From an uncultured Dehalococcoidia bacterium (GTDB lineage: Bacteria; Chloroflexota; Dehalococcoidia; GIF9; UBA5629), in the NCBI GenBank assembly GCA_903844685.1, contig CAIMUM010000222.1:1-33345 (forward strand): 33,345 nt of DNA, read 5' to 3'. Under the pieces are notes generated by a model. The model saw only the letters and a program-made list of their open reading frames with translations, made no database searches and was not told the origin of the DNA. Numbering within the stretch: position 1 is the first letter of the stretch; every line of letters starts with the position of its first letter. The translations under genes were made by a program, and so were the position numbers. This document shows, one piece after another, positions 5,614-18,401 of the stretch.

Positions 5614-5759
5614 TCTTTATTGTCTTTACCGGCTTTCTTTCTCTTCGTTAACCCCTTTACATTCGTATCAGATAGAACTGTCTTCTAGAACACAAACACT
5701 TCCCAATCACGTTCAATCGTGCCATAGTTAATTAATGCACATTTGTGGGAGGTGTATTT

Positions 5760-7433
5760 ATGCCTACTGTTAAAGAGTTGCTGCGCACAGGCCGGAAAGA
5801 GGAACTCTGGCAAAGGTGTTGCGGCTTTCTAGATCTTAGCACTGAACAATTTATGTCCATCCAGAAAAGGCTTCTTCTTGAGCAAATTGAACTGCTTAAT
5901 GCCTCCGCCATTGGAAGAAAAATTCTCAAGGGCACTGTACCCCAGGATGTGGACGAATTCCGAAGGAGGGCGCCGCTAACCACTTATCAGGATTACTGTC
6001 CCGAGTTGAGCGAAAGAAGGGATGATGCCATGCCCGTTAAGCCTTTGCTATGGCAGCATACATCGGGCAGGTCTGCTGAGTATCCTTTCAAATGGGAAAA
6101 CATAAAGTGGATGCCGGTAACCCAGAGGATGTGCGAAGAATTAGCTGCGATCGGGGCAGGCCTTGCCATGCTGGCGAGTTGCAAGCATAAGGGTGACGCG
6201 TCAGCCATGAAGCGCGGGGCAAAATTTATTTACGCGGTTGCTCCCAGGCCCTATACTTCGGGAACATATGCCTATATAGCTACGGAGGAAGTTGAAGGTA
6301 TCAGCATGCCTCCTTTGGAGATTGCGGAAAAACTGGATATTGAAGAACGCATCGCCTTGAGCTTCAAGCAAGCCCTATCACAGGGCCTGGATTACTATTT
6401 TGGTGTTTCGGTAGCCCTGGTGGCTATCGGTGAGAAAATCAATCAACGCATGGGCAAGGTCAATATTAAATCAATGTTATCTCAACCGAGAGCTTTAGCC
6501 AGGTTGGCAAAGGGTTTAATCAAAAGCAAGTTGGCGGGACGTGCGCTTATGCCCAAAGACTTATGGACAGTAAAGGGCATCTTAAGCAGCGGCACCGATG
6601 TCACAATCTTCAAAAATGTAATTAAAGATACCTGGGGCGTATACCCGCTGGATACTTATGTCAGCACTGAAGGCGGCATGATTGCCACACAGGCCTGGGA
6701 TTACGACGGCATGACATTTATCCCTAACATGAATTTTTTTGAATTCATCCCGGAGGCAGAGTATGAGAAGTGGAAGGAAAACAGGTCATATGTGCCCAGG
6801 ACCGTGCTGCTTGATGAAGTACAGCCAAACAGTAAATATGAACTCGTCATCAGTAATTTCCACGGTGCGCCGCTCGTCAGGTACAGGACAGGAGATATCA
6901 TCAAAATTACTTCACTGCGCAATAAAAAGCTGAGCATTGAGCTGCCACAGATGGAATTCGAGGGCAGGATAGAGGATGTAATTGATGCAGCCGGATTTTT
7001 CGGACTGACCGAGAAGGTCATCTGGCAGGCTGTCAGCAAAACAGCTATACCATATGTTGATTGGGCAGCCCGCGAGGAACGAAAAGAGGACAAGTCTTTC
7101 CTGCATGTATATCTCGAACTCAAAGGTGATATCAAGCTGGCCGAAGATAGCATAGCACGTGCGATATACGCCGAACTAAAAAAAATGGATGAAGGATTCA
7201 TTTACGCAAATGTCGGACCAGTGCCCAACAATGTTCCGGTAATAGTTACTTTACTGCCAAAAGGAGCTTTTGAAAACCATATCAACTTGCGGCGTTCCCA
7301 GGGCGCAGACCTGGCGCATTTAAAGCCACGTCACATTAATCCCACGGATAAAGACCTGGTTATTCTCGGTTCACCCGTTCCAGCATCACCTGAAGCAGAC
7401 CGGGTATACGCTGGAGCGCCGTCAGCAAGCTAA
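5760..7433 (+). CDS. GH3 auxin-responsive promoter family protein (acyl-adenylating enzyme)
   Basis: Overall GH3 architecture: LWQHTSGRSAEYPFKW, STEGGMIATQ, NMNFFEFIPEAE, LVRYRTGDIIKI. GGGAGGTG RBS before ATG 5760. Confidence 0.88.
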   Translation: MPTVKELLRTGRKEELWQRCCGFLDLSTEQFMSIQKRLLLEQIELLNASAIGRKILKGTVPQDVDEFRRRAPLTTYQDYCPELSERRDDAMPVKPLLWQHTSGRSAEYPFKWENIKWMPVTQRMCEELAAIGAGLAMLASCKHKGDASAMKRGAKFIYAVAPRPYTSGTYAYIATEEVEGISMPPLEIAEKLDIEERIALSFKQALSQGLDYYFGVSVALVAIGEKINQRMGKVNIKSMLSQPRALARLAKGLIKSKLAGRALMPKDLWTVKGILSSGTDVTIFKNVIKDTWGVYPLDTYVSTEGGMIATQAWDYDGMTFIPNMNFFEFIPEAEYEKWKENRSYVPRTVLLDEVQPNSKYELVISNFHGAPLVRYRTGDIIKITSLRNKKLSIELPQMEFEGRIEDVIDAAGFFGLTEKVIWQAVSKTAIPYVDWAAREERKEDKSFLHVYLELKGDIKLAEDSIARAIYAELKKMDEGFIYANVGPVPNNVPVIVTLLPKGAFENHINLRRSQGADLAHLKPRHINPTDKDLVILGSPVPASPEADRVYAGAPSAS

Positions 7434-7595: not shown

Positions 7596-10500
7596 ATGAA
7601 CATACACTCATTAATACCCCTGATAGCAACCATAGCATATATCCCGCTGATTATCATCCTTTACGCTAATCGTCCCTGGCAGCGTCAGAAACAGGTCTTC
7701 GTATTGTTCCTCTTTGCTGCCATGCTGTGGAGCTTAGGTGATTTCCTGTTTCGCAGCGATTTCCTGGTCAACGAAAAAACTGTTATTGCAATAGCAATAC
7801 TCTGTAGCGTTGTCTTCGCCGCAACGCAACTGCACTACTTCCTGCGTACGTACTATGAGACAAAAAAGCCGGGAGTCCCCGTGGCTTACATTATCATGGT
7901 TCTGGCCTTTATATGGATAATCCTGTTTACCCCTCAACGTTTAGTAGTCGATAAAGGCGTTCCACCGGTATATGGAACGTGGATATATCCTCTATTAATT
8001 TATTATATCGTCTTGATCGGGCGCGATGTCTTCATTCTTGTCAAAAAGCTTAGAAGTATTGTAGACCCTTTGGCACGCAACCAATTAGCCTACCTTCTTG
8101 TATCTATATTTATTCCCGCGCTCATTGTTGCCTTCGTAACAGGCGGCATGGCACAGGAATATCCATTAGCCCACGTGGCCAATTTTATCAGCGCCCTGCT
8201 TTTAACTTATACCGTTATCAAACATCAATTACTCGATTTGCGTATTGTCCTGCGGCGCAGTCTGGCTGTTACCGCTATGGCTGCTATCGGCATAGGCATC
8301 TACCTGCTACTGTATGTCATCGGGCATTTTCTCTTCCACTTCGATGTGATCAGCATTAACTTTTTACTGGGAATGGGTGCCGCCCTGTTGATTGCCTTCG
8401 TGATTTACCAGGTACGGTACGTGGCCATAGGCCAGATAGACAAATTGTTTTACCGGGATACCTACGAATACCGCCAAAAACTCAAAGACTTTACCGAGAA
8501 CCGTATCAGGGGGATGCTCAGCCTCGATGAAATGGGCAATGAGTTGTTAAACCTGCTGTGCGGCGCTATCAGGTGCAAACAGGCGTCTCTTTTGCTACCC
8601 CGTGAGGATAACGGTGAGTTTTTTGTCCGTTTTTCGGTCGGCGATGCACAAGCTGGATTGCCTCTATCGGTAAAAAACGATAGCCCGATCATCCAATGGC
8701 TGCAAAAGACGAAAACATATCTGCCCAGGGACAGATTGGATATAGCTCCCGAATTCAAGAGTTTATGGAAAGAAGAACTGGAATCTATTGCCCAATTGAA
8801 TATCCAGATGTTCTTGCCGGTGATCAGCAGAAATAACATTATAGGCTTGCTGGCACTCGGCGAAAAACAGCACAAACGCGGGTATTCGCTGGAAGACATT
8901 AACTATACCGAGAGAATACTCAACAATACCGCCACCAGCATTGAGAAAGAATACCTGCAGGACCAGCTGAGAAAACGTGAACAGGAACTATCACTTATAA
9001 ATCAATTGGCCGGTGTAATTTCCTCCAGTTTAGATATAAAAGAGGTATATGACGCCTTTGTCGGCGAGCTTAAAGAATTTATCGAGGTTGATTATGCGGC
9101 GATTGCCCTGGTGGAAGGTGACAACATATATTTTGCCGCCGTATCGACACAAGTCGGTTCCGCCTGGCATGCCGGAGAAAAAATCCCGATGCGCGGCACG
9201 GGAACGGAATGGGTTTATCTGAACAGGAGGCCCTTCTATGAGCGTGACCTTACCAAACGCAAACGATTTTGGACATGCGAAGAATATATCAAGCGGGGAC
9301 TGCGGTCGGTACTATACCTCCCGCTTGTAAACAAGGGGGAAGTCATAGGTGTGCTGATCATCGGCAGTAAAAATGTTGCAGCCTATAACACGGAACAGAG
9401 CATATTGCTGGAACACCTGGCTTCGCAGATAGCCGCTCCGATTGAAAACAGCCGGCTTTTTACTAAATCTGAGGAAATAGCGCGAGTCGACGGCCTTACA
9501 GAGTTATTTAACCGGCGCCATTTTGACGAAAGGATGCGTGAGGAGATAGCCCGTCACTCACGGTACGGGGATACGCTTTCCATGCTCCTCATCGATATGG
9601 ATAATTTTAAAAAATATAATGATACCTTCGGGCATTTAGCGGGAGACCGCATGTTGGTGCACGCGGCCGGCCTGGTCAAGGCTGCTACCAGGACTTCGGA
9701 CCTCGTCTTCAGATACGGTGGAGATGAGTTCGCGGTTATATTGCCAAACTCGTCTACTATGGATTCTTTCAAAGTTGCGGAGCGTATGAGGGAGAATTTA
9801 GCCGTTGAAATGTCCGGCAGGCAGGTGGACATCACGATCAGCATAGGGGTGGCCTCCTGGCCTGGCGACGGCACAACACTGGACGAGGTATGTTATGCGG
9901 CTGACATGGCCTTATATTACGCCAAGCGTACGGGACAAAACAGGACATCAATCGCGTCACGCACCCTTTTCTCTCTGAATGAACCAAATGTAAACGTTAA
10001 TACGGAAGCTGAAGTGCTAAGCACCATATACGCCCTGGCAGCGACACTTGAAGCGCGTGACAAGTATACGTACGGCCATTCGCGCCGTGTGAGCCGTTAT
10101 GCCGTATCGTTAGCGGAAGCTTTAAATTTACCGCCCGAACAGGTAGCGCTGGTAAGCGCAGCGTCCCTCCTTCACGACATAGGTAAGGTGGGAATACCTG
10201 ACAATGTGCTCAACAAATGCGAAAAACTATCGGATGACGAATGGGAATTGCTCAAACAACATCCCCGATTGTCCGCAACTATCGTAGGGCATGTGCCCAG
10301 TTTAAGCGCCTGTCTTGCTGCGGTAAGACATCACCATGAGCGTTGGGATGGTGCCGGTTACCCGGCAGGGTTAAAAGATGAGGCTATACCCATAGAAGCA
10401 CGTATACTGACGGTTACTGACTCTTTTGAAGCTATGATATCTGAAAGACCTTACCGTAAGGCATTATCTTTCAAACAAGCAATAGCGGAATTAGAAAAAT

Positions 10501-10616
10501 GCTCCGGAACACAATTCGATCCAGCAGTAGTCAGGGCATTCATCCCCATAGCGCTCTCATCCGCTCCTGACGATATCGAACTTGAAATGCAACGCAGCCA
10601 GCAAGACCAGGGTTAA
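7596..10616 (+). CDS. 7TM sensor - GAF - GAF - GGDEF - HD-GYP bifunctional c-di-GMP protein
   Basis: N-terminal multi-TM region, two GAF-like segments, RTSDLVFRYGGDEF (I-site RxxD plus intact GGDEF), and HDIGKVGIPD...HHHERWDGAGYP (HD-GYP). Confidence 0.95.
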   Translation: MNIHSLIPLIATIAYIPLIIILYANRPWQRQKQVFVLFLFAAMLWSLGDFLFRSDFLVNEKTVIAIAILCSVVFAATQLHYFLRTYYETKKPGVPVAYIIMVLAFIWIILFTPQRLVVDKGVPPVYGTWIYPLLIYYIVLIGRDVFILVKKLRSIVDPLARNQLAYLLVSIFIPALIVAFVTGGMAQEYPLAHVANFISALLLTYTVIKHQLLDLRIVLRRSLAVTAMAAIGIGIYLLLYVIGHFLFHFDVISINFLLGMGAALLIAFVIYQVRYVAIGQIDKLFYRDTYEYRQKLKDFTENRIRGMLSLDEMGNELLNLLCGAIRCKQASLLLPREDNGEFFVRFSVGDAQAGLPLSVKNDSPIIQWLQKTKTYLPRDRLDIAPEFKSLWKEELESIAQLNIQMFLPVISRNNIIGLLALGEKQHKRGYSLEDINYTERILNNTATSIEKEYLQDQLRKREQELSLINQLAGVISSSLDIKEVYDAFVGELKEFIEVDYAAIALVEGDNIYFAAVSTQVGSAWHAGEKIPMRGTGTEWVYLNRRPFYERDLTKRKRFWTCEEYIKRGLRSVLYLPLVNKGEVIGVLIIGSKNVAAYNTEQSILLEHLASQIAAPIENSRLFTKSEEIARVDGLTELFNRRHFDERMREEIARHSRYGDTLSMLLIDMDNFKKYNDTFGHLAGDRMLVHAAGLVKAATRTSDLVFRYGGDEFAVILPNSSTMDSFKVAERMRENLAVEMSGRQVDITISIGVASWPGDGTTLDEVCYAADMALYYAKRTGQNRTSIASRTLFSLNEPNVNVNTEAEVLSTIYALAATLEARDKYTYGHSRRVSRYAVSLAEALNLPPEQVALVSAASLLHDIGKVGIPDNVLNKCEKLSDDEWELLKQHPRLSATIVGHVPSLSACLAAVRHHHERWDGAGYPAGLKDEAIPIEARILTVTDSFEAMISERPYRKALSFKQAIAELEKCSGTQFDPAVVRAFIPIALSSAPDDIELEMQRSQQDQG

Positions 10617-11275
10617 CCCGGCCTGGCAAGTACACATATATTCCTGGAAAGATACTTTACCCGCAACGTGTACCCGTTCTCAGCATAAGTCCTCATAACT
10701 TCGAATCCGGCCGACTTCAGCAGTCTTGTTATTTCAGGATAAGTAAAAAGATAGTAATGGCGCATAAGTTGTTTGTCTTGAATTTTCCAGGGAACAATTA
10801 CTTGCTTGCCCTTCCCGATAAAATCCTTCTGCCAGCGGTTCCATACCGTTAAGAAAACCTCGCCGCCTGGCTTCAAGATACGCCGCAATTCCCGGAAAGC
10901 CTGCAGCCTGCTTTGTTTATCTAAAATATGATGATAGGCGGCCACGGAGATAATCCAATCAAAGCTTCTATCTTGGAAAGGCAGGCTAACAGCGTCCGCC
11001 ACTATCAGGCTGGCCGCAAATTTGAATTTATCGGAATATTTTAATGCCAGATTGATCATCGCTGCTGAGGAATCAATCCCCCATAATTCGAATTTATCCT
11101 TGAACGGCAGGAAGTCCGGCCCGTGCGCGCAGCCTATATTCAGCAGCTTCCCGCTTTGCCAGCGTTGCGCCACTGCATCAAGCTCTGCTCTGAACCGGGT
11201 CCGGTGGCGAAGCCTGTACCAGCTCTCGGCTATACCGTCATAGACGTTGGAGAGATCGTTTTCTTTGGTGTCCAT
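10613..11275 (-). CDS. Class I SAM-dependent methyltransferase, Trm9/ALKBH8-MTase-like
   Basis: NVYDGIAESWYRLR; LLNIGCAHG; GIDSSAAMINLA; ADAVSLPF; ISVAAYHHI; LKPGGEVFLTVWNRWQ; RNICVLAR. Divergent from elp3. Confidence 0.85.
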   Translation of the reverse strand: MDTKENDLSNVYDGIAESWYRLRHRTRFRAELDAVAQRWQSGKLLNIGCAHGPDFLPFKDKFELWGIDSSAAMINLALKYSDKFKFAASLIVADAVSLPFQDRSFDWIISVAAYHHILDKQSRLQAFRELRRILKPGGEVFLTVWNRWQKDFIGKGKQVIVPWKIQDKQLMRHYYLFTYPEITRLLKSAGFEVMRTYAENGYTLRVKYLSRNICVLARPG

Positions 11276-11340
11276 ATAGCTAATTTGCTACACTTGCAGC
11301 GCAACTCAAATATAACATAACCGGCAAGTTGAATCACATT

Positions 11341-12699
11341 ATGCGAAAAGGTTCGAGGACGATCTCCGGCGTCACGCCCGTGGCGGTCATGTCCAAGCCG
11401 GCGCCCTGCCCGGGCTCTTGCGTATTCTGCCCGACCTATCCTGATTCGCCGAAAAGCTACACACCTGAATCTCCCGCCGTATTGAGGGCGCTGGCCTGCG
11501 ATTTTGACCCTCAGAAACAGGTGGAACTCCGGCTCAAGATATTATCCAGGATGGGGCACCCGGGCGACAAAATTGAGCTTATCGTGATGGGCGGCACTTT
11601 CCTGGCAACTGAACCGGATTACCAGTATAGCTTTATCAAATCCTGCTATGATGCCCTGAACGGCAAAATTTCAAGCAATCTTGAAGAGGCCAAGCATATC
11701 AACGAAAGCTCGGCATTCAGGTGCGTTGGGCTCTGCATAGAAACCAGGCCCGACTGGTGCGGGGAAACTGAGGTAAACCGGATGCTGGAATTCGGCGCCA
11801 CACGCGTCGAATTGGGCGTCCAGGCCCTTGATGACGATATCTACAGCCTGGTACGCAGGGGTCACAGCGTAAGCGACGTCGCCAGAGCAACAGCACTGTT
11901 GAAGAAATACGGCTTGAAAGTCTACTACCACTGGATGCCGGGGTTGCCGGGCTCAAGCATAGATCACGACCTCGAAATGACACGCATGCTTTTTGAAGAT
12001 GACCGGTTCAAACCGGACGGTCTCAAACTCTACCCGATGCTGGTCGTGGCCGGCACTGAAATCGAGAGGTGGTATGCGGAGGGCAGGTATTTACCCTACA
12101 CGATGGATGAGCTTACTGCCTTGTTGGCAGACATAAAGGCGATGGTCCCGGGATATGTCCGAGTTCCGCGCGTGATGCGGGACATACCCACCAGATTTAT
12201 CGTTGCGGGTTGCCGGGACCTGGCCCTCCGCTCCAACGTACAGGAGGCTATGAAAACCAGGGGACTGCAATGCCAGTGCACCCGCTGCCGGGAGTACGGC
12301 CACAGGCGGCGCGACGGCTGGCATATCGGGCAGCCATCCCTTCACCGCTATGAATACGCGGCATCAGGCGGCAGGGAGATATTCCTATCCTGTGAAGACT
12401 CTGGCGGCACGCTTTTCGGGCTCCTGAGATTGCGCATCAGCCCGGATGACATATATCCGGCTATGGTGAGGGAGATCCATATTTTCGGTTCAGAGGTGCC
12501 GCTGGGGGACCAGGATGACCTTGCTGCACAGCACAAGGGGCTCGGTTCACAATTGCTGAAAGAGGCCGAAAGGATTGCCCGTGAGGAGAATTCGATAGGC
12601 AAAATTGCAGTCATAAGCGGTGTGGGGGCCAGGGACTATTTCCGCAATACCGGCGGTTACGAATTAGAAGGGCACTATATGATAAAGTCTCTAAAGTAA
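11341..12699 (+). CDS. elp3: Elp3-family tRNA U34 carboxymethyltransferase (radical SAM + GNAT)
   Basis: RTISGVTPVAVMSKPAPCPGSCVFCPTYPDSPKSYTPESPAVLRA, KIELIVMGGTF, CVGLCIETRPDW, GNAT tail ISGVGARDYFRNTGGYELEGHYMIKSL. ATG at 11341 preferred over TTG 11329. Confidence 0.96.
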   Translation: MRKGSRTISGVTPVAVMSKPAPCPGSCVFCPTYPDSPKSYTPESPAVLRALACDFDPQKQVELRLKILSRMGHPGDKIELIVMGGTFLATEPDYQYSFIKSCYDALNGKISSNLEEAKHINESSAFRCVGLCIETRPDWCGETEVNRMLEFGATRVELGVQALDDDIYSLVRRGHSVSDVARATALLKKYGLKVYYHWMPGLPGSSIDHDLEMTRMLFEDDRFKPDGLKLYPMLVVAGTEIERWYAEGRYLPYTMDELTALLADIKAMVPGYVRVPRVMRDIPTRFIVAGCRDLALRSNVQEAMKTRGLQCQCTRCREYGHRRRDGWHIGQPSLHRYEYAASGGREIFLSCEDSGGTLFGLLRLRISPDDIYPAMVREIHIFGSEVPLGDQDDLAAQHKGLGSQLLKEAERIAREENSIGKIAVISGVGARDYFRNTGGYELEGHYMIKSLK

Positions 12700-12704
12700 C
12701 CGCA

Positions 12705-13676
12705 TCAGGGGTAAAGATGGCAGGCCGCGTAATGTCCCGGCACAACTTCCCTGAAGGCGGGCTCTGCCACCGGGCAAATCTCCATCACCCTGTGACACCT
12801 GGTGTGAAAACGGCAGCCGGCCGGCGGTTTGAGGGGGGATGGCATATCGCCACTGAGCAAAATCCTGCTACCACCACCCCGCCTTAAGCCGGCCACGGCA
12901 GAGAGCAGGGCTTCAGTGTAGGGATGCAACGGATCCCTGAATAACTCCTCCTTATCCGCCAGTTCCACGATCTGTCCCATGTACATCACCGCCACGCGGT
13001 CGGCTATGTATTTTACCACCGCGAGATCATGGCTCACGAACATATACGATAGCCCGTCCGCGTCCTTGATATCCATCATCAGGTTAAGTACCTGTGCCTG
13101 CACCGATACGTCCAGGGCGCTAACCGGCTCGTCCGCAATAATCAGCCGGGGATCCATGGCCAGCGCGCGGGCAATGCCGATACGCTGGCGCTGGCCTCCG
13201 CTGAATTCATGCGGATACCTCTCCGCAAAGCCTGCCTCAAGGCCGACCTTCTCCATCAGGCGCGCCACTCTCCGGCCGCGCTCGCCGGCACCGCTGACCC
13301 CGTGCACAATCAAAGCCTCCCCGATTGAATCACCCACCGGCATACGCGGATCAAGCGACGAATCGGGATCCTGGAAAACGATCTGTATTTTGCCCCGCAA
13401 CGTGCGCAAATCCCGCTTATTCAAGGAAAGCACGTCAGTCCCCTGGAAAGAGATCTGCCCGCCCGTGGGCTCTTCCAGCCGCAGTATCGCTTTGCCGAGA
13501 GTGGATTTACCGCATCCCGATTCTCCCACCAGTCCCAACACTTCCCCCTCGATAATATCCAGCGAAACACCGTCTACCGCTTTTATCTCCCCCAGCGGCC
13601 TGGGTATCAAACCTGCGGTTACACGGTAGTATTTCTTGAGATTTTTGATCTGTAAGAGCGGAACCTTATTGATCAT
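12705..13676 (-). CDS. oppF: Oligopeptide/dipeptide ABC transporter ATP-binding protein (OppF/DppF-like)
   Basis: GESGCGKS Walker A, SGGQRQRIGIARAL signature, oligo_HPY C-terminus GCRFHTRC. Confidence 0.94.
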   Translation of the reverse strand: MINKVPLLQIKNLKKYYRVTAGLIPRPLGEIKAVDGVSLDIIEGEVLGLVGESGCGKSTLGKAILRLEEPTGGQISFQGTDVLSLNKRDLRTLRGKIQIVFQDPDSSLDPRMPVGDSIGEALIVHGVSGAGERGRRVARLMEKVGLEAGFAERYPHEFSGGQRQRIGIARALAMDPRLIIADEPVSALDVSVQAQVLNLMMDIKDADGLSYMFVSHDLAVVKYIADRVAVMYMGQIVELADKEELFRDPLHPYTEALLSAVAGLRRGGGSRILLSGDMPSPLKPPAGCRFHTRCHRVMEICPVAEPAFREVVPGHYAACHLYP

Positions 13677-14686
13677 GCTATGAAAGCTCCGGCGTTATCG
13701 TATAGATGACAGGCAACTTTATGAACACCCGCTATGTTCACCAGTGCAGGCTCAGTTGAACGGCAAACATCCATCACATCCCTGCAGCGCGGGTGGAAGG
13801 TGCATCCCTCCGGCAGGTCGATGGGATTGGGGGTATTGCCGGGTATGGACGGCAACCTTTTGAGGTTCGTGGATATATCCGGAAGGCAGGCAATCAGGCC
13901 ACGCGTGTAAGGATGGGCAGGATCAGTGAGAATAGTCTCAACCGGCGCTATCTCGACAACCCTGCCGCCATAGATAACGGCTGCCCGGTCGCCTATCTCG
14001 CGTACCAGCGACAGGTCATGCGTGATAAAAATTATAGACATGTTGCGCCTGGTTTTCAGTTCCTGCAGTATGAACATAATCTGTGCGCGTATAGTGACAT
14101 CCACCGCCGTGGTAGGTTCATCGGCGATCAATATTGACGGATCACAGGAAAGGCCCATGGCGATCATGGCCCTCTGCTTCATGCCGCCGGACATCTGGTG
14201 CGGATACATATTCAGCGCATTTTCAGCCTGGGGGATATTCATCTCCTCGAGGAGCAGCCGTGCTTTCTTGCGAGCGTCTGCCCGGTTATACCGGCCATGT
14301 GCATTTATTTGCTCCATTATCTGATCACCTATGGTAAAAACCGGGTTCAGGGCGGATTGCGCATTCTGAAAAACCATGGCAATCTCCTTGCCCCTGACCC
14401 GCCTGACCTGCTCCACAGGGCAATTCGCCAGGTCAATTCCGGCGAACATGACCTTGCCGCTGACAATTTTACCGGGAGGGCTATCGAAAAGCCGGAGGAG
14501 CGAAAGGGCGGTAACCGATTTACCGCAACCCGATTCACCCACCAGGCACAGGCATTCACCCTGCCTCAGATCAAAATCCACCCCGTTGACAGCCTTTACT
14601 ATCCCCCGTCGGGTATAGAACCAGGTTTTCAAGTTGCTTATTTCCAGTAAAGTGTTCACTGTCAATCTATTTTCACCATTGCACAC
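13673..14686 (-). CDS. oppD: Oligopeptide/dipeptide ABC transporter ATP-binding protein (OppD/DppD-like)
   Basis: GESGCGKS, MSGGMKQRAMIAMGL, GCTFHPRC. Overlaps oppF by 4 bp. Confidence 0.94.
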   Translation of the reverse strand: MCNGENRLTVNTLLEISNLKTWFYTRRGIVKAVNGVDFDLRQGECLCLVGESGCGKSVTALSLLRLFDSPPGKIVSGKVMFAGIDLANCPVEQVRRVRGKEIAMVFQNAQSALNPVFTIGDQIMEQINAHGRYNRADARKKARLLLEEMNIPQAENALNMYPHQMSGGMKQRAMIAMGLSCDPSILIADEPTTAVDVTIRAQIMFILQELKTRRNMSIIFITHDLSLVREIGDRAAVIYGGRVVEIAPVETILTDPAHPYTRGLIACLPDISTNLKRLPSIPGNTPNPIDLPEGCTFHPRCRDVMDVCRSTEPALVNIAGVHKVACHLYDNAGAFIA

Positions 14687-14691
14687 AAATC

Positions 14692-15654
14692 TTATACGCT
14701 GGCCTTGGGGTCAAAGGCATCACGTAAACCGTCACCGAAAAAATTAAATGAAAGGACGGTCAGAAAAAGCATGATGCCCGGCTCGACCGCCACCCACCAG
14801 GCGGAATCCAGGCTGTGCTGCCCGGTATTGAGTATCGTGCCCCAGCTCGTGCTCATCGGGTCACCCAGTCCTATGAAGCTCAGTGATGCCTCCGCCATGA
14901 TCACACCGGGTATGGAGAGCGAAGCCATCACTATGATAAGGCTGCTGACATTGGGGATGAGATGGTTAAATATAACCCTCGTATCGCTGGCCCCCAGGGC
15001 TTTGGACGCGGTGATAAAATCCCTTGTCCGTAACGACAGCGCTTCGCTGCGTATCAGGCGCGCTGCGCCCGTCCAACCTGTCAGGCCGATGACCAGCACG
15101 ATAATGGCCAGGCTGGGACCGAAAATGAAGACAATCAGCACCAGCAGCAGGAAGAAGGGGAAGGTCATCATGATATCCGTGAAGCGCATCAGGGCATTAT
15201 CCACCCAACCGCCCAGGAAAGCGGATAATACGCCGAGAAAGGTGCCCAGGAATATGGCTATGCCCGTGGCCAGCAGCCCTACCAGCAGCGATATCCTGGC
15301 GCCGGAGACCAGCATGGCCAGCATATCGCGTCCCTTGCTGTCGGTGCCCAGCGGATGCTCGGGTCGCCCTTCAATCATCGTAGTAGTTATCTCATTGGTT
15401 TTTATATCGTAAATCGATTCCTGTATCGAGAATCCCAAGGGCGGCAGGTTCAGGATATTGAAATCGGTTTTCTGCGGGTCCTGTACCAGCAGTGGTCCGA
15501 AAATACCTGTCAAAACAAGAAAACCGATGAATCCCAGACCCACCAGCGAAAGCCGGTTTTTCTGCAGCCTTTCCCAATAGTAGCCCCAGAGGCGATGGCT
15601 GATACGCAAAGGTATGCGGGATCTGCCACCCTGCCCTGGTTTCAACTCAGTCAT
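14692..15654 (-). CDS. oppC: ABC transporter permease (OppC/DppC-like)
   Basis: Multi-TM; GLTGWTGAARLIRSEALSLRTRDFITASKALGASD EAA-type loop. Confidence 0.93.
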   Translation of the reverse strand: MTELKPGQGGRSRIPLRISHRLWGYYWERLQKNRLSLVGLGFIGFLVLTGIFGPLLVQDPQKTDFNILNLPPLGFSIQESIYDIKTNEITTTMIEGRPEHPLGTDSKGRDMLAMLVSGARISLLVGLLATGIAIFLGTFLGVLSAFLGGWVDNALMRFTDIMMTFPFFLLLVLIVFIFGPSLAIIVLVIGLTGWTGAARLIRSEALSLRTRDFITASKALGASDTRVIFNHLIPNVSSLIIVMASLSIPGVIMAEASLSFIGLGDPMSTSWGTILNTGQHSLDSAWWVAVEPGIMLFLTVLSFNFFGDGLRDAFDPKASV

Positions 15655-16609
15655 ATCTGATCCTCGGGTCGAGGTAGGTATAGATAAGGTCGGTCGCCAG
15701 GTTGATAAAAAGCACCATGAAAGTGCCGATCAGCGTTACCGCTATAACAACAGCATAATCGTTGGCAAAGATAGCGTTAAAGGAAACCTGTCCCAGTCCG
15801 GGTATGCCGAAGACTATCTCGGTCAGGTAAGCCCCGCCGAAAACAATGCTGCCCAGGTCGAACATGATGATGGTCACCAGGGGCAGCACGGCGTTGCGCA
15901 GCACATGCTTGCCTATCACCGTCCTCTCGGATAACCCCTTGGCGCGCGCGGTGGTAACAAATTCCTTACGGAGGTTATCCAGCATGGCCGAACGCGTATA
16001 GCGCACGTAGCCGGCCAACTCCCCCGTGCCCAGCGCCAGCACGGGCATGATCAACTGCCGCAGGTTTTCCAGCGACCAGATGGGGTAACTTGTATCGTAA
16101 AAAGTCTTGAAAACACCCAGGTAGACGGCGAATACCAGTATCAGCATCAAACCCAGCCAGAATCCCGGTATAGATATGCCGATGAAAGAAAATATGGACG
16201 TGGCATAATCGATCTTCGTATTCTGATTAACCGCCGATAGTATGCCCAGGCCGACGCCCAGGATGATGGCAAAAATCGTAGCCAGCAGGATAAGCTGGAA
16301 TGAATAAATCCAGTGCGAGCCGATCAGTTCCATGACAGGCTGTGAGGCGCTGAATGACCAGCCCCACTTGCCCTGCAGGAGGTTGCCCATATACAGTAAA
16401 TACTGCTCGATAATCGGCTTATCCAGGCCGTAACGCGCCTCGATGGCCTGCCTTACCGATTCCACATCCTGACCTTTAGCAGCGATGTTGAGGATATACC
16501 GGTCTACGGGCGATGTCGGGCCGACGCGCAGCAAGATAAAGGTGATGGTCAGTATGCCCCAGGCGATGATGACGCTGTAAAGTAAACGCTTGATAATATA
16601 GCTGCGCAT
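15647..16609 (-). CDS. oppB: ABC transporter permease (OppB/DppB-like)
   Basis: MRSYIIKRLLYSVIIAWGILTITFILLRVGP start; YVRYTRSAMLDNLRKEFVTTARAKGLSE loop. Overlaps oppC by 8 bp. Confidence 0.93.
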   Translation of the reverse strand: MRSYIIKRLLYSVIIAWGILTITFILLRVGPTSPVDRYILNIAAKGQDVESVRQAIEARYGLDKPIIEQYLLYMGNLLQGKWGWSFSASQPVMELIGSHWIYSFQLILLATIFAIILGVGLGILSAVNQNTKIDYATSIFSFIGISIPGFWLGLMLILVFAVYLGVFKTFYDTSYPIWSLENLRQLIMPVLALGTGELAGYVRYTRSAMLDNLRKEFVTTARAKGLSERTVIGKHVLRNAVLPLVTIIMFDLGSIVFGGAYLTEIVFGIPGLGQVSFNAIFANDYAVVIAVTLIGTFMVLFINLATDLIYTYLDPRIRYD

Positions 16610-16664: not shown

Positions 16665-18401
16665 TTACTCAAAGTGCCAGAGGTAGTAATTATAGCCCAT
16701 GTTGATGCCGGGCTCGATGCCCTTGACGTTACTCTGGAAACCGTTGTTGCCCCTGGAATAGGTGATAAAATCCACCGGCTGTTCCTCGGATATCACCCGT
16801 GACAGCTCCTGGTACATCGTCCTGCGGTCTTCCTTATCCAGGCCTTCCTTTGACCTGATCTTTGCAAAGAGCGCATCCACCTTATCGTTGAAAAAGCCGA
16901 AGGAATTGAGGCCCCCGTCGCTGGCAAAGAAAACCCTGCTGCCCGAGGGAGCTAACGGGTCGGTGCTGTGCCCCATAAGGGTCAGGTCCCAGGTTTCCTC
17001 GCTGACCGCACCGGGCCCGTTGTTATAGCGTGCTTCCTGGCTGCTGCCGGGCACCTTATTAGCCATGTACTGCCGTATCAGGGTGGCCCATTGCACCCAC
17101 TTCACTTCAACGTCTATGCCGATAGCCGCCAGTTCCTGCTTGATCAGCAACGACATCGATTCCACCACGTCGCTGCCCGGCGTGGTAACCAGCAACAGCT
17201 TTACCGGCTTCCCGTCCTTGTCCAGCAGCACATCACGGTCACCGTTTTTCCCATACTTGTATCCTGCCGCTTTAAGCATCTCTATGGCTTGCTGCTTGCT
17301 GTTAAGCGGAGCGACACCGAGCTTCAAAACAGTATCATCGCTATACCAGGGCGAACTGGAAGGAATAAAGCTGTAGGCAGGTTCAGCGAAACCGAGGTAT
17401 ATCTTCTTGACGATGGTATCTTTGTCTATGGCCATGGAGATGGCCTGGCGCACCTCTTTCTTACGCAGACCCTCCCAACCATTGTCACGCTGGTTATAGC
17501 TGATTATGTTGTAGCCGCGGGTAGGGATGGTGTATACATTGATACGCTCCATCTTCTTGAACTTGGCCACGTTCTGCGGCTCGATCCCGCACTGCGTGAT
17601 GTCCCCGGCTTCCAGCGCCGCCTGCATCACCGCCGAGGTACCGAACATCTTGATAACCATTTCCTGGAAAAAGGGTGCGCCGTTCTCCTTGCCCAGGAAG
17701 AAAGCGGGGTTTCGCGACAGCACGAACTTGTCGTTCTTGAGCCACTCCTTGAAGGTATAGGGCCCGAGGTTACCTGTATAGCTGAGGTTATTGAATTCTT
17801 TGGCCTGTGTGAAAGCATCCACGTTGCCCTCATATTTAACGGCGATGTACTTGGGATACGGCATGAGATCGTAGAGGGTATAAACGAATTCAGGCTGCAC
17901 CGATTTGCGTGTAACCGTGAAAGTCGTATTATCAACCACCGCGGGTACAACGTACTGCTTCACCCCGTCCACAACCTCCTGCCAGTCGTCCTTGTAGTTG
18001 TAGTTCAGCCAACTGGAGAACATCAGGTTATTCATCGTGTATACGTAATCATCGGAGGTCACCTGCGAGCCGTCGCTCCATTTCAAGTCGGGACGGATGG
18101 TTATCGTATAAACCAGGCCGTCCGGCGACACTTCGATGTCCTTGGCCAGGCAGCGCAGGACGATATTGAACTTATTATCGTAGCCGGCTAATGATTCGAG
18201 CGTATAGCCTACATATCCAAAAGACGACGCGTCGGCCGCCAGTATCCAGTTCAACGTCTCGGCCTCGCCGCCGGAAACGTCACCTTCGATGTAGTTTCCG
18301 GCCACTTTGGGGGCCGGCGCTGAGCAGCCCGGCGCGGCGGTTAACAGCATGCTTACGGCTACCAGCGTTACAATCCACTTCATCAGTGTATCTTTAGACA
18401 C
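16665..18401 (-). CDS. ABC transporter substrate-binding lipoprotein, family 5
   Basis: N-terminal hydrophobic signal with lipobox-like AAPGC; family 5 SBP core DLKWSDGSQVTSDDYVYT. Confidence 0.93.
   Translation of the reverse strand: MSKDTLMKWIVTLVAVSMLLTAAPGCSAPAPKVAGNYIEGDVSGGEAETLNWILAADASSFGYVGYTLESLAGYDNKFNIVLRCLAKDIEVSPDGLVYTITIRPDLKWSDGSQVTSDDYVYTMNNLMFSSWLNYNYKDDWQEVVDGVKQYVVPAVVDNTTFTVTRKSVQPEFVYTLYDLMPYPKYIAVKYEGNVDAFTQAKEFNNLSYTGNLGPYTFKEWLKNDKFVLSRNPAFFLGKENGAPFFQEMVIKMFGTSAVMQAALEAGDITQCGIEPQNVAKFKKMERINVYTIPTRGYNIISYNQRDNGWEGLRKKEVRQAISMAIDKDTIVKKIYLGFAEPAYSFIPSSSPWYSDDTVLKLGVAPLNSKQQAIEMLKAAGYKYGKNGDRDVLLDKDGKPVKLLLVTTPGSDVVESMSLLIKQELAAIGIDVEVKWVQWATLIRQYMANKVPGSSQEARYNNGPGAVSEETWDLTLMGHSTDPLAPSGSRVFFASDGGLNSFGFFNDKVDALFAKIRSKEGLDKEDRRTMYQELSRVISEEQPVDFITYSRGNNGFQSNVKGIEPGINMGYNYYLWHFE

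Follow-up and report, generated by a model that had tools for sequence, protein, structure and literature searches.

Divergent elp3 and Trm9-like methyltransferase genes as a candidate minimal route to mcm5U34 in Dehalococcoidia

An elp3 gene and a divergently transcribed gene for a small methyltransferase, lying side by side in the genome of an uncultured Dehalococcoidia bacterium, most probably form a minimal bacterial route from cm5U to mcm5(s2)U34 in tRNA; we put the probability of this reading at about 0.8, with both the nucleoside and the enzyme activity being inferred. In the proposed pathway, Elp3 would add a carboxymethyl group to U34 by means of acetyl-CoA and radical SAM chemistry, giving cm5U34, and the Trm9-like methyltransferase would esterify the cm5U34 carboxylate with SAM to give mcm5U34. 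MnmA could then add a 2-thio group, resulting in mcm5s2U34 in the tRNAs for Lys, Glu and Gln. This two-gene route would replace MnmE/MnmG, the enzymes which modify C5 of U34 in most bacteria (to cmnm5U34), and it would operate without a stand-alone Trm112 at least in one family, that of genomes G013 and G068. The substrate and product of the methyltransferase, the order of the steps, the Trm112-independent activity and the shared promoter are all inferred. mcm5U has been described as a modification typical of eukaryotes. Formation of cm5U by archaeal Elp3 has been reported in vitro (PMC13315578), and Trm9-Trm112 is known to convert cm5U to mcm5U (PMC5372719).

The window, by which we mean the whole stretch of 33,345 nucleotides that was analysed, is one contig (C222) of a 2.05-Mb genome that is 78% complete. 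The features of the locus are listed in Table 1. A preliminary description had placed an Elp3 gene about 65 bp from a divergent methyltransferase gene with Trm9/ALKBH8-like motifs, and this was confirmed, as the ORFs, domains and start codons agree and the 220-aa ORF does contain the motifs that were quoted. The elp3 ORF (11329-12699, plus strand) opens with a TTG at 11329; nevertheless, the likely translation start is the ATG at 11341, because MRKGSRTISGVTPVAV aligns with the N-terminus of the Dehalococcoides Elp3 structure, and it follows that 65 bp separate the two start codons. No sigma-70-type match was found when this gap was searched, and thus divergent promoters within it are inferred from gene orientation only. 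Membership of Elp3 in its family is met by TIGR01211 (560 bits, 4.6e-168; NCBIfam cut-off 350), and its closest solved relative is the Dehalococcoides Elp3 5l7j (1.7e-190). The methyltransferase has only generic Pfam matches (Methyltransf_11, 25 and 23), with no specific NCBIfam family above cut-off; Pfam and NCBIfam alone were rejected as a classifier, since they cannot tell this protein from generic methyltransferases.

Table 1. Features of the elp3-methyltransferase locus, with codons for the residues aligned to yeast (Sc) Trm9
Feature	Position	Strand	Basis
Trm9-like class I SAM-dependent methyltransferase, 220 aa	10613..11275	-	Pfam Methyltransf_11, PDB profile, AF2 model and Foldseek
N212 codon = ScTrm9 N271	10640..10642	-	N in 49/49 rows reaching the column
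Y174 codon = ScTrm9 Y243	10754..10756	-	Y in 48/51
R172 codon = ScTrm9 R241	10760..10762	-	R in 51/51
H115-H116 codons = ScTrm9 H115	10928..10933	-	HH in 51/51
R23 codon = ScTrm9 R29	11207..11209	-	aligned with YlTrm9 'ANTR'; R in 51/51
Divergent intergenic region, 65 bp (shared promoter inferred)	11276..11340	.	sequence
Elp3 with radical SAM, Radical_SAM_C and GNAT domains; 452 aa from ATG at 11341	11341..12699	+	TIGR01211, Pfam

Several other features of the surroundings were recorded. A gene for a GAF-GGDEF-HD-GYP protein (7596-10616, plus strand) is convergent with the methyltransferase gene, the two stops overlapping by 4 bp, and such a gene is found convergently downstream of the methyltransferase in 28 of the 69 orthologue loci with enough sequence. 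On the other side, genes for two ABC-transporter ATPases and two permease-like proteins (12705-16609, minus strand) read towards elp3, and a substrate-binding-protein-like gene (16665-18401) lies nearby; the ATPase encoded next to elp3 also occurs in 17 of 80 orthologue loci. The window further encodes a GH3-family (adenylating enzyme) protein (5745-7433, plus strand) in this Chloroflexota genome, a family familiar from the conjugation of plant hormones. No RNA family and no tRNA were found in the whole window. The nearest named loci (98-99% identity) come from Chloroflexi MAGs whose samples bear the code LacPavin; Dehalococcoidia is the label of most of the remaining ones.

Three independent tests, namely profile, residues and co-occurrence with Elp3, group the methyltransferase with Trm9/ALKBH8. 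In a phmmer search of the PDB with the methyltransferase of the window, Yarrowia Trm9 ranked second; over 181 aligned positions the two proteins are 27% identical. When a profile built from 21 orthologues was searched against the whole PDB, Trm9 (5cm2_Z) moved to first place (7.2e-22, 81 bits), with a modest margin over the runner-up 1ve3, an uncharacterised archaeal methyltransferase (76 bits). The match covers residues 26-186 of 5cm2_Z, and thus it extends past the SAM core and further C-terminally than the match to 1ve3. When the AlphaFold2 model of the methyltransferase (pLDDT 89.8) was submitted to Foldseek, 1ve3 ranked first and 5cm2 second (E 2.5e-15), the TMt of 0.81 and the 25% identity of 5cm2 being the highest among the 50 matches listed. 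Trm9 is therefore the top PDB relative by profile and the second by fold.

The residues point the same way. In yeast Trm9, the substitutions R29A, H115A, R241A, Y243A and N271A cause a loss of both tRNA affinity and activity (PMC5372719, a review by the authors of that work). We aligned the Yarrowia Trm9 chain with 51 bacterial rows of the Dehalococcoidia type and located the equivalents of these five residues (Table 1); the conversion of ScTrm9 to Yarrowia numbering is our assumption, deduced from the spacing of the residues together with the Sc sequence. In ten generic class I methyltransferases the five are almost never combined (R29 in 1/10, H115 in 4/10, R241 in 0/10, Y243 in 2/10 and N271 in 0/10). 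A maximum-likelihood tree, which contained no archaeal Trm9, left the attachment of its sole, long-branched Trm9 tip unresolved, and for this reason the assignment to the Trm9 group is based on the profile, the residues and the link to the pathway, with no support drawn from phylogeny. The top-scoring match of a tblastn search of plasmids, from Haloarcula, was rejected as a generic methyltransferase that lacks the Trm9 residues.

The distribution of the two genes was assessed in the class of the source genome (Dehalococcoidia, 148 genomes) and in the phylum (301 Chloroflexota genomes). Within the class, the methyltransferase orthologue is present in 24 genomes (E about 1e-41 or better, in one case split over two contigs), and apart from the contig-split piece there is a gap in score between 1e-41 and the paralogues at about 1e-14. 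Elp3 is found in exactly the same 24 genomes, while none of the 124 genomes lacking Elp3 has the orthologue (Fisher p 4e-28, not corrected for relatedness). Moreover, elp3 is divergent from and adjacent to the methyltransferase gene in 75 of 80 named orthologue loci. Three of the remaining loci (L106, L135 and L146) are cut by a contig end at the start of the methyltransferase gene, and in the genome of L149 elp3 lies on a different contig. Only L092 (2988-5633) is a true exception, with the methyltransferase gene downstream of miaA-dapF and not beside elp3; just a C-terminal Elp3 fragment was found elsewhere in that genome, in a record with masked bases. The linkage goes well beyond chance, and with 75/80 loci and 24/24 Elp3 genomes it is conserved across Dehalococcoidia. 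Close orthologues at L135 and L148 (54% and 51%) come from MAGs labelled Deltaproteobacteria, which may be mislabelled, mis-binned or a result of transfer.

On this evidence, it seems very improbable that the protein merely adjoins elp3 and methylates small molecules or quinones as a generic, UbiE-like enzyme. Such an idea could lean on the broad Methyltransf_11/UbiE-like fold, which is all that Pfam and NCBIfam yield, as well as on the uncharacterised archaeal enzyme as top fold match and on the unresolved tree. It is contradicted by an occurrence that coincides exactly with that of Elp3 across 148 genomes and is set off from the paralogues by a clear gap in score, by conservation of the Trm9 residues, and by the scores themselves, as the best UbiE-type score is 39 bits against a cut-off of 158 and all NCBIfam matches listed, UbiE and BioC included, stay far below cut-off. 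Placement among UbiE or small-molecule methyltransferases, which would have refuted the original proposal, was not obtained, even if the tree itself remains unresolved. An enzyme like CmoM, converting cmo5U34 to its ester mcmo5U34, deserves mention because CmoM, too, is a carboxyl methyltransferase of the wobble uridine. We regard this as hardly tenable: CmoB, which is needed for cmo5U, was found in none of 100 class genomes, and this removes a CmoM-like role; besides, the linkage to Elp3 would be left unexplained and no CmoM chain is named among the PDB matches of the orthologue profile at 1e-5.

The alternative that is hardest to dismiss, though still unlikely, is that the methyltransferase belongs to the same tRNA pathway and acts on another target. 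This could be some other site in the anticodon loop that Elp3 modifies, or a group made by Elp3 that is not the cm5 carboxylate. That the two genes co-occur and are linked shows that they share a pathway, but not which substrate is used. On the other hand, the conserved residues are those that affect tRNA affinity and cm5U34 methylation in yeast Trm9, and generic methyltransferases lack them. Esterification of cm5U34 thus remains our preferred reading.

If Elp3 and its partner take over the modification of U34, the relation to MnmG is of interest. MnmG occurs in 39 of the 148 class genomes, none of which has Elp3 (p 6e-4); in the phylum it is present in 0/52 Elp3 genomes and in 121/249 others (p 1e-13). 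The two systems thus share the modification of U34 at C5, but MnmG is never found alongside Elp3 in either set. Neither Elp3 nor MnmG was found in about 128 of the 301 phylum genomes, and therefore Elp3 is not the sole alternative to MnmG in Chloroflexota. The source genome has MnmA, as do 25 of 30 relatives; this makes mcm5s2U possible and suggests that part of the product may be in this form.

The methyltransferase of the Dehalococcoidia type is restricted to the 24 genomes of this class among the 301 of the phylum, all of them bearing Elp3. The remaining 28 of the 52 Elp3 genomes belong to other classes, and the neighbourhoods of twelve of their elp3 genes revealed a diverged methyltransferase of about 250 aa. 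A profile built from seven such sequences and searched against the 301 genomes matched 27, all within these 28, with G321 as the sole one without a match. The second type (loci L165-L176 and L178-L204) lies at most 2.2 kb from elp3, in divergent orientation, in 23 of the 27 genomes, and one or the other type is present in 51/52 Elp3 genomes and 0/249 others. Its profile also places Trm9 first in the PDB (5.3e-12). It retains the equivalents of R29 (in 20/20 rows), H115 and R241; the Y243 equivalent is missing and that of N271 is rare. We could not show that the two bacterial types are each other's closest relatives, since the match between their profiles is of a kind that class I methyltransferases in general could produce. 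The genomes with the second type might, at a guess, be Anaerolineae. It seems rather probable that at least two Chloroflexota classes have swapped MnmE/MnmG for an Elp3 plus Trm9-like mcm5(s2)U34 pathway, using two types of methyltransferase that evolved separately and, in the case of one family, dispensing with Trm112.

Trm112 requires separate consideration, as both Trm9 and ALKBH8 depend on it (PMC5372719). No Trm112-like gene is visible in the window, as had been remarked previously, and the sole Trm112p (PF03966) match in the 78%-complete source genome is a false lead, lying inside PriA. Small PF03966 proteins do occur in the class, in genomes with and without the elp3 pair. More informative is f16, the family of G013 and G068, represented by eight genomes (99-100% complete, mostly one contig), all with the pair. 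No stand-alone PF03966 protein was found in any of these eight; five have no PF03966 match, and in the other three the matches all fall within ORFs of 284-823 aa. G013 bears the same divergent pair, and its Elp3 matches 5l7j over the full length with 985 bits; judged by this similarity, the f16 Elp3 is of the same lineage as the Dehalococcoides enzyme of known structure. Unless an unrelated helper takes the place of Trm112, the methyltransferase of f16 must therefore function without it. Its activity is apparently Trm112-independent, an inference from gene content only, and the missing Trm112 concerns mechanism more than homology.

Taken together, profile, fold, linkage and absence of MnmG support the two-gene mcm5U pathway which the preliminary description had proposed, while its chemistry, i.e. 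mcm5U in tRNA, is unproven. Against it stand the lack of nucleoside or activity data, the closeness of 1ve3 in the profile search and its first place by fold, the unresolved tree, the need of Trm9 for Trm112 as opposed to the situation in f16, the absence of the Y243 and mostly of the N271 equivalents from the second type, and locus L092.

With the Trm9/ALKBH8-Trm112 systems the bacterial enzyme shares the five active-site residues, the C-terminal VPW...R-Y-Y-H lid region and the partnership with Elp3. It differs from them in being encoded by a stand-alone gene divergent from elp3, without an Elp1/2/4/5/6 context and without AlkB or RRM domains, and in the lack of a stand-alone Trm112 in the f16 family. 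Archaeal pairs, such as HVO_2888 with HVO_0574/HVO_1032 of Haloferax volcanii, likewise combine a single-subunit Elp3 with a Trm9-like methyltransferase, but in hosts where Trm112 exists (PMC2584109, PMC5372719). Clustering of Elp3 and Trm9 genes was noted as early as 2008 in the archaeon Sulfolobus solfataricus (PMC2584109). For bacteria, a 2017 review stated that genes resembling Trm112-dependent methyltransferases were not detected (PMC5372719), and a 2020 review mentioned Elp3 in Dehalococcoides and the lack of direct evidence for xcm5U34 derivatives there, without mention of Trm9 (PMC7663514). Our literature search, which excluded subscription papers and preprints, found no earlier description of a bacterial Elp3-Trm9 pair.

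The Elp3 crystal structures widely used for bacteria derive from Dehalococcoides, and that of D. mccartyi (5l7j) is of the same Elp3 family as the one described here; the published work covers Elp3 alone. A conserved Trm9-like partner predicts which U34 derivative to seek and identifies the gene that would carry out step two; with it comes a Trm9-type enzyme that apparently does without Trm112. Because the methyltransferase both resembles Trm9 and is distributed like it, many Chloroflexota probably rely on two genes to produce mcm5U or mcm5s2U; this would represent a bacterial replacement of one wobble-uridine system (MnmEG) by another (Elp3-Trm9).
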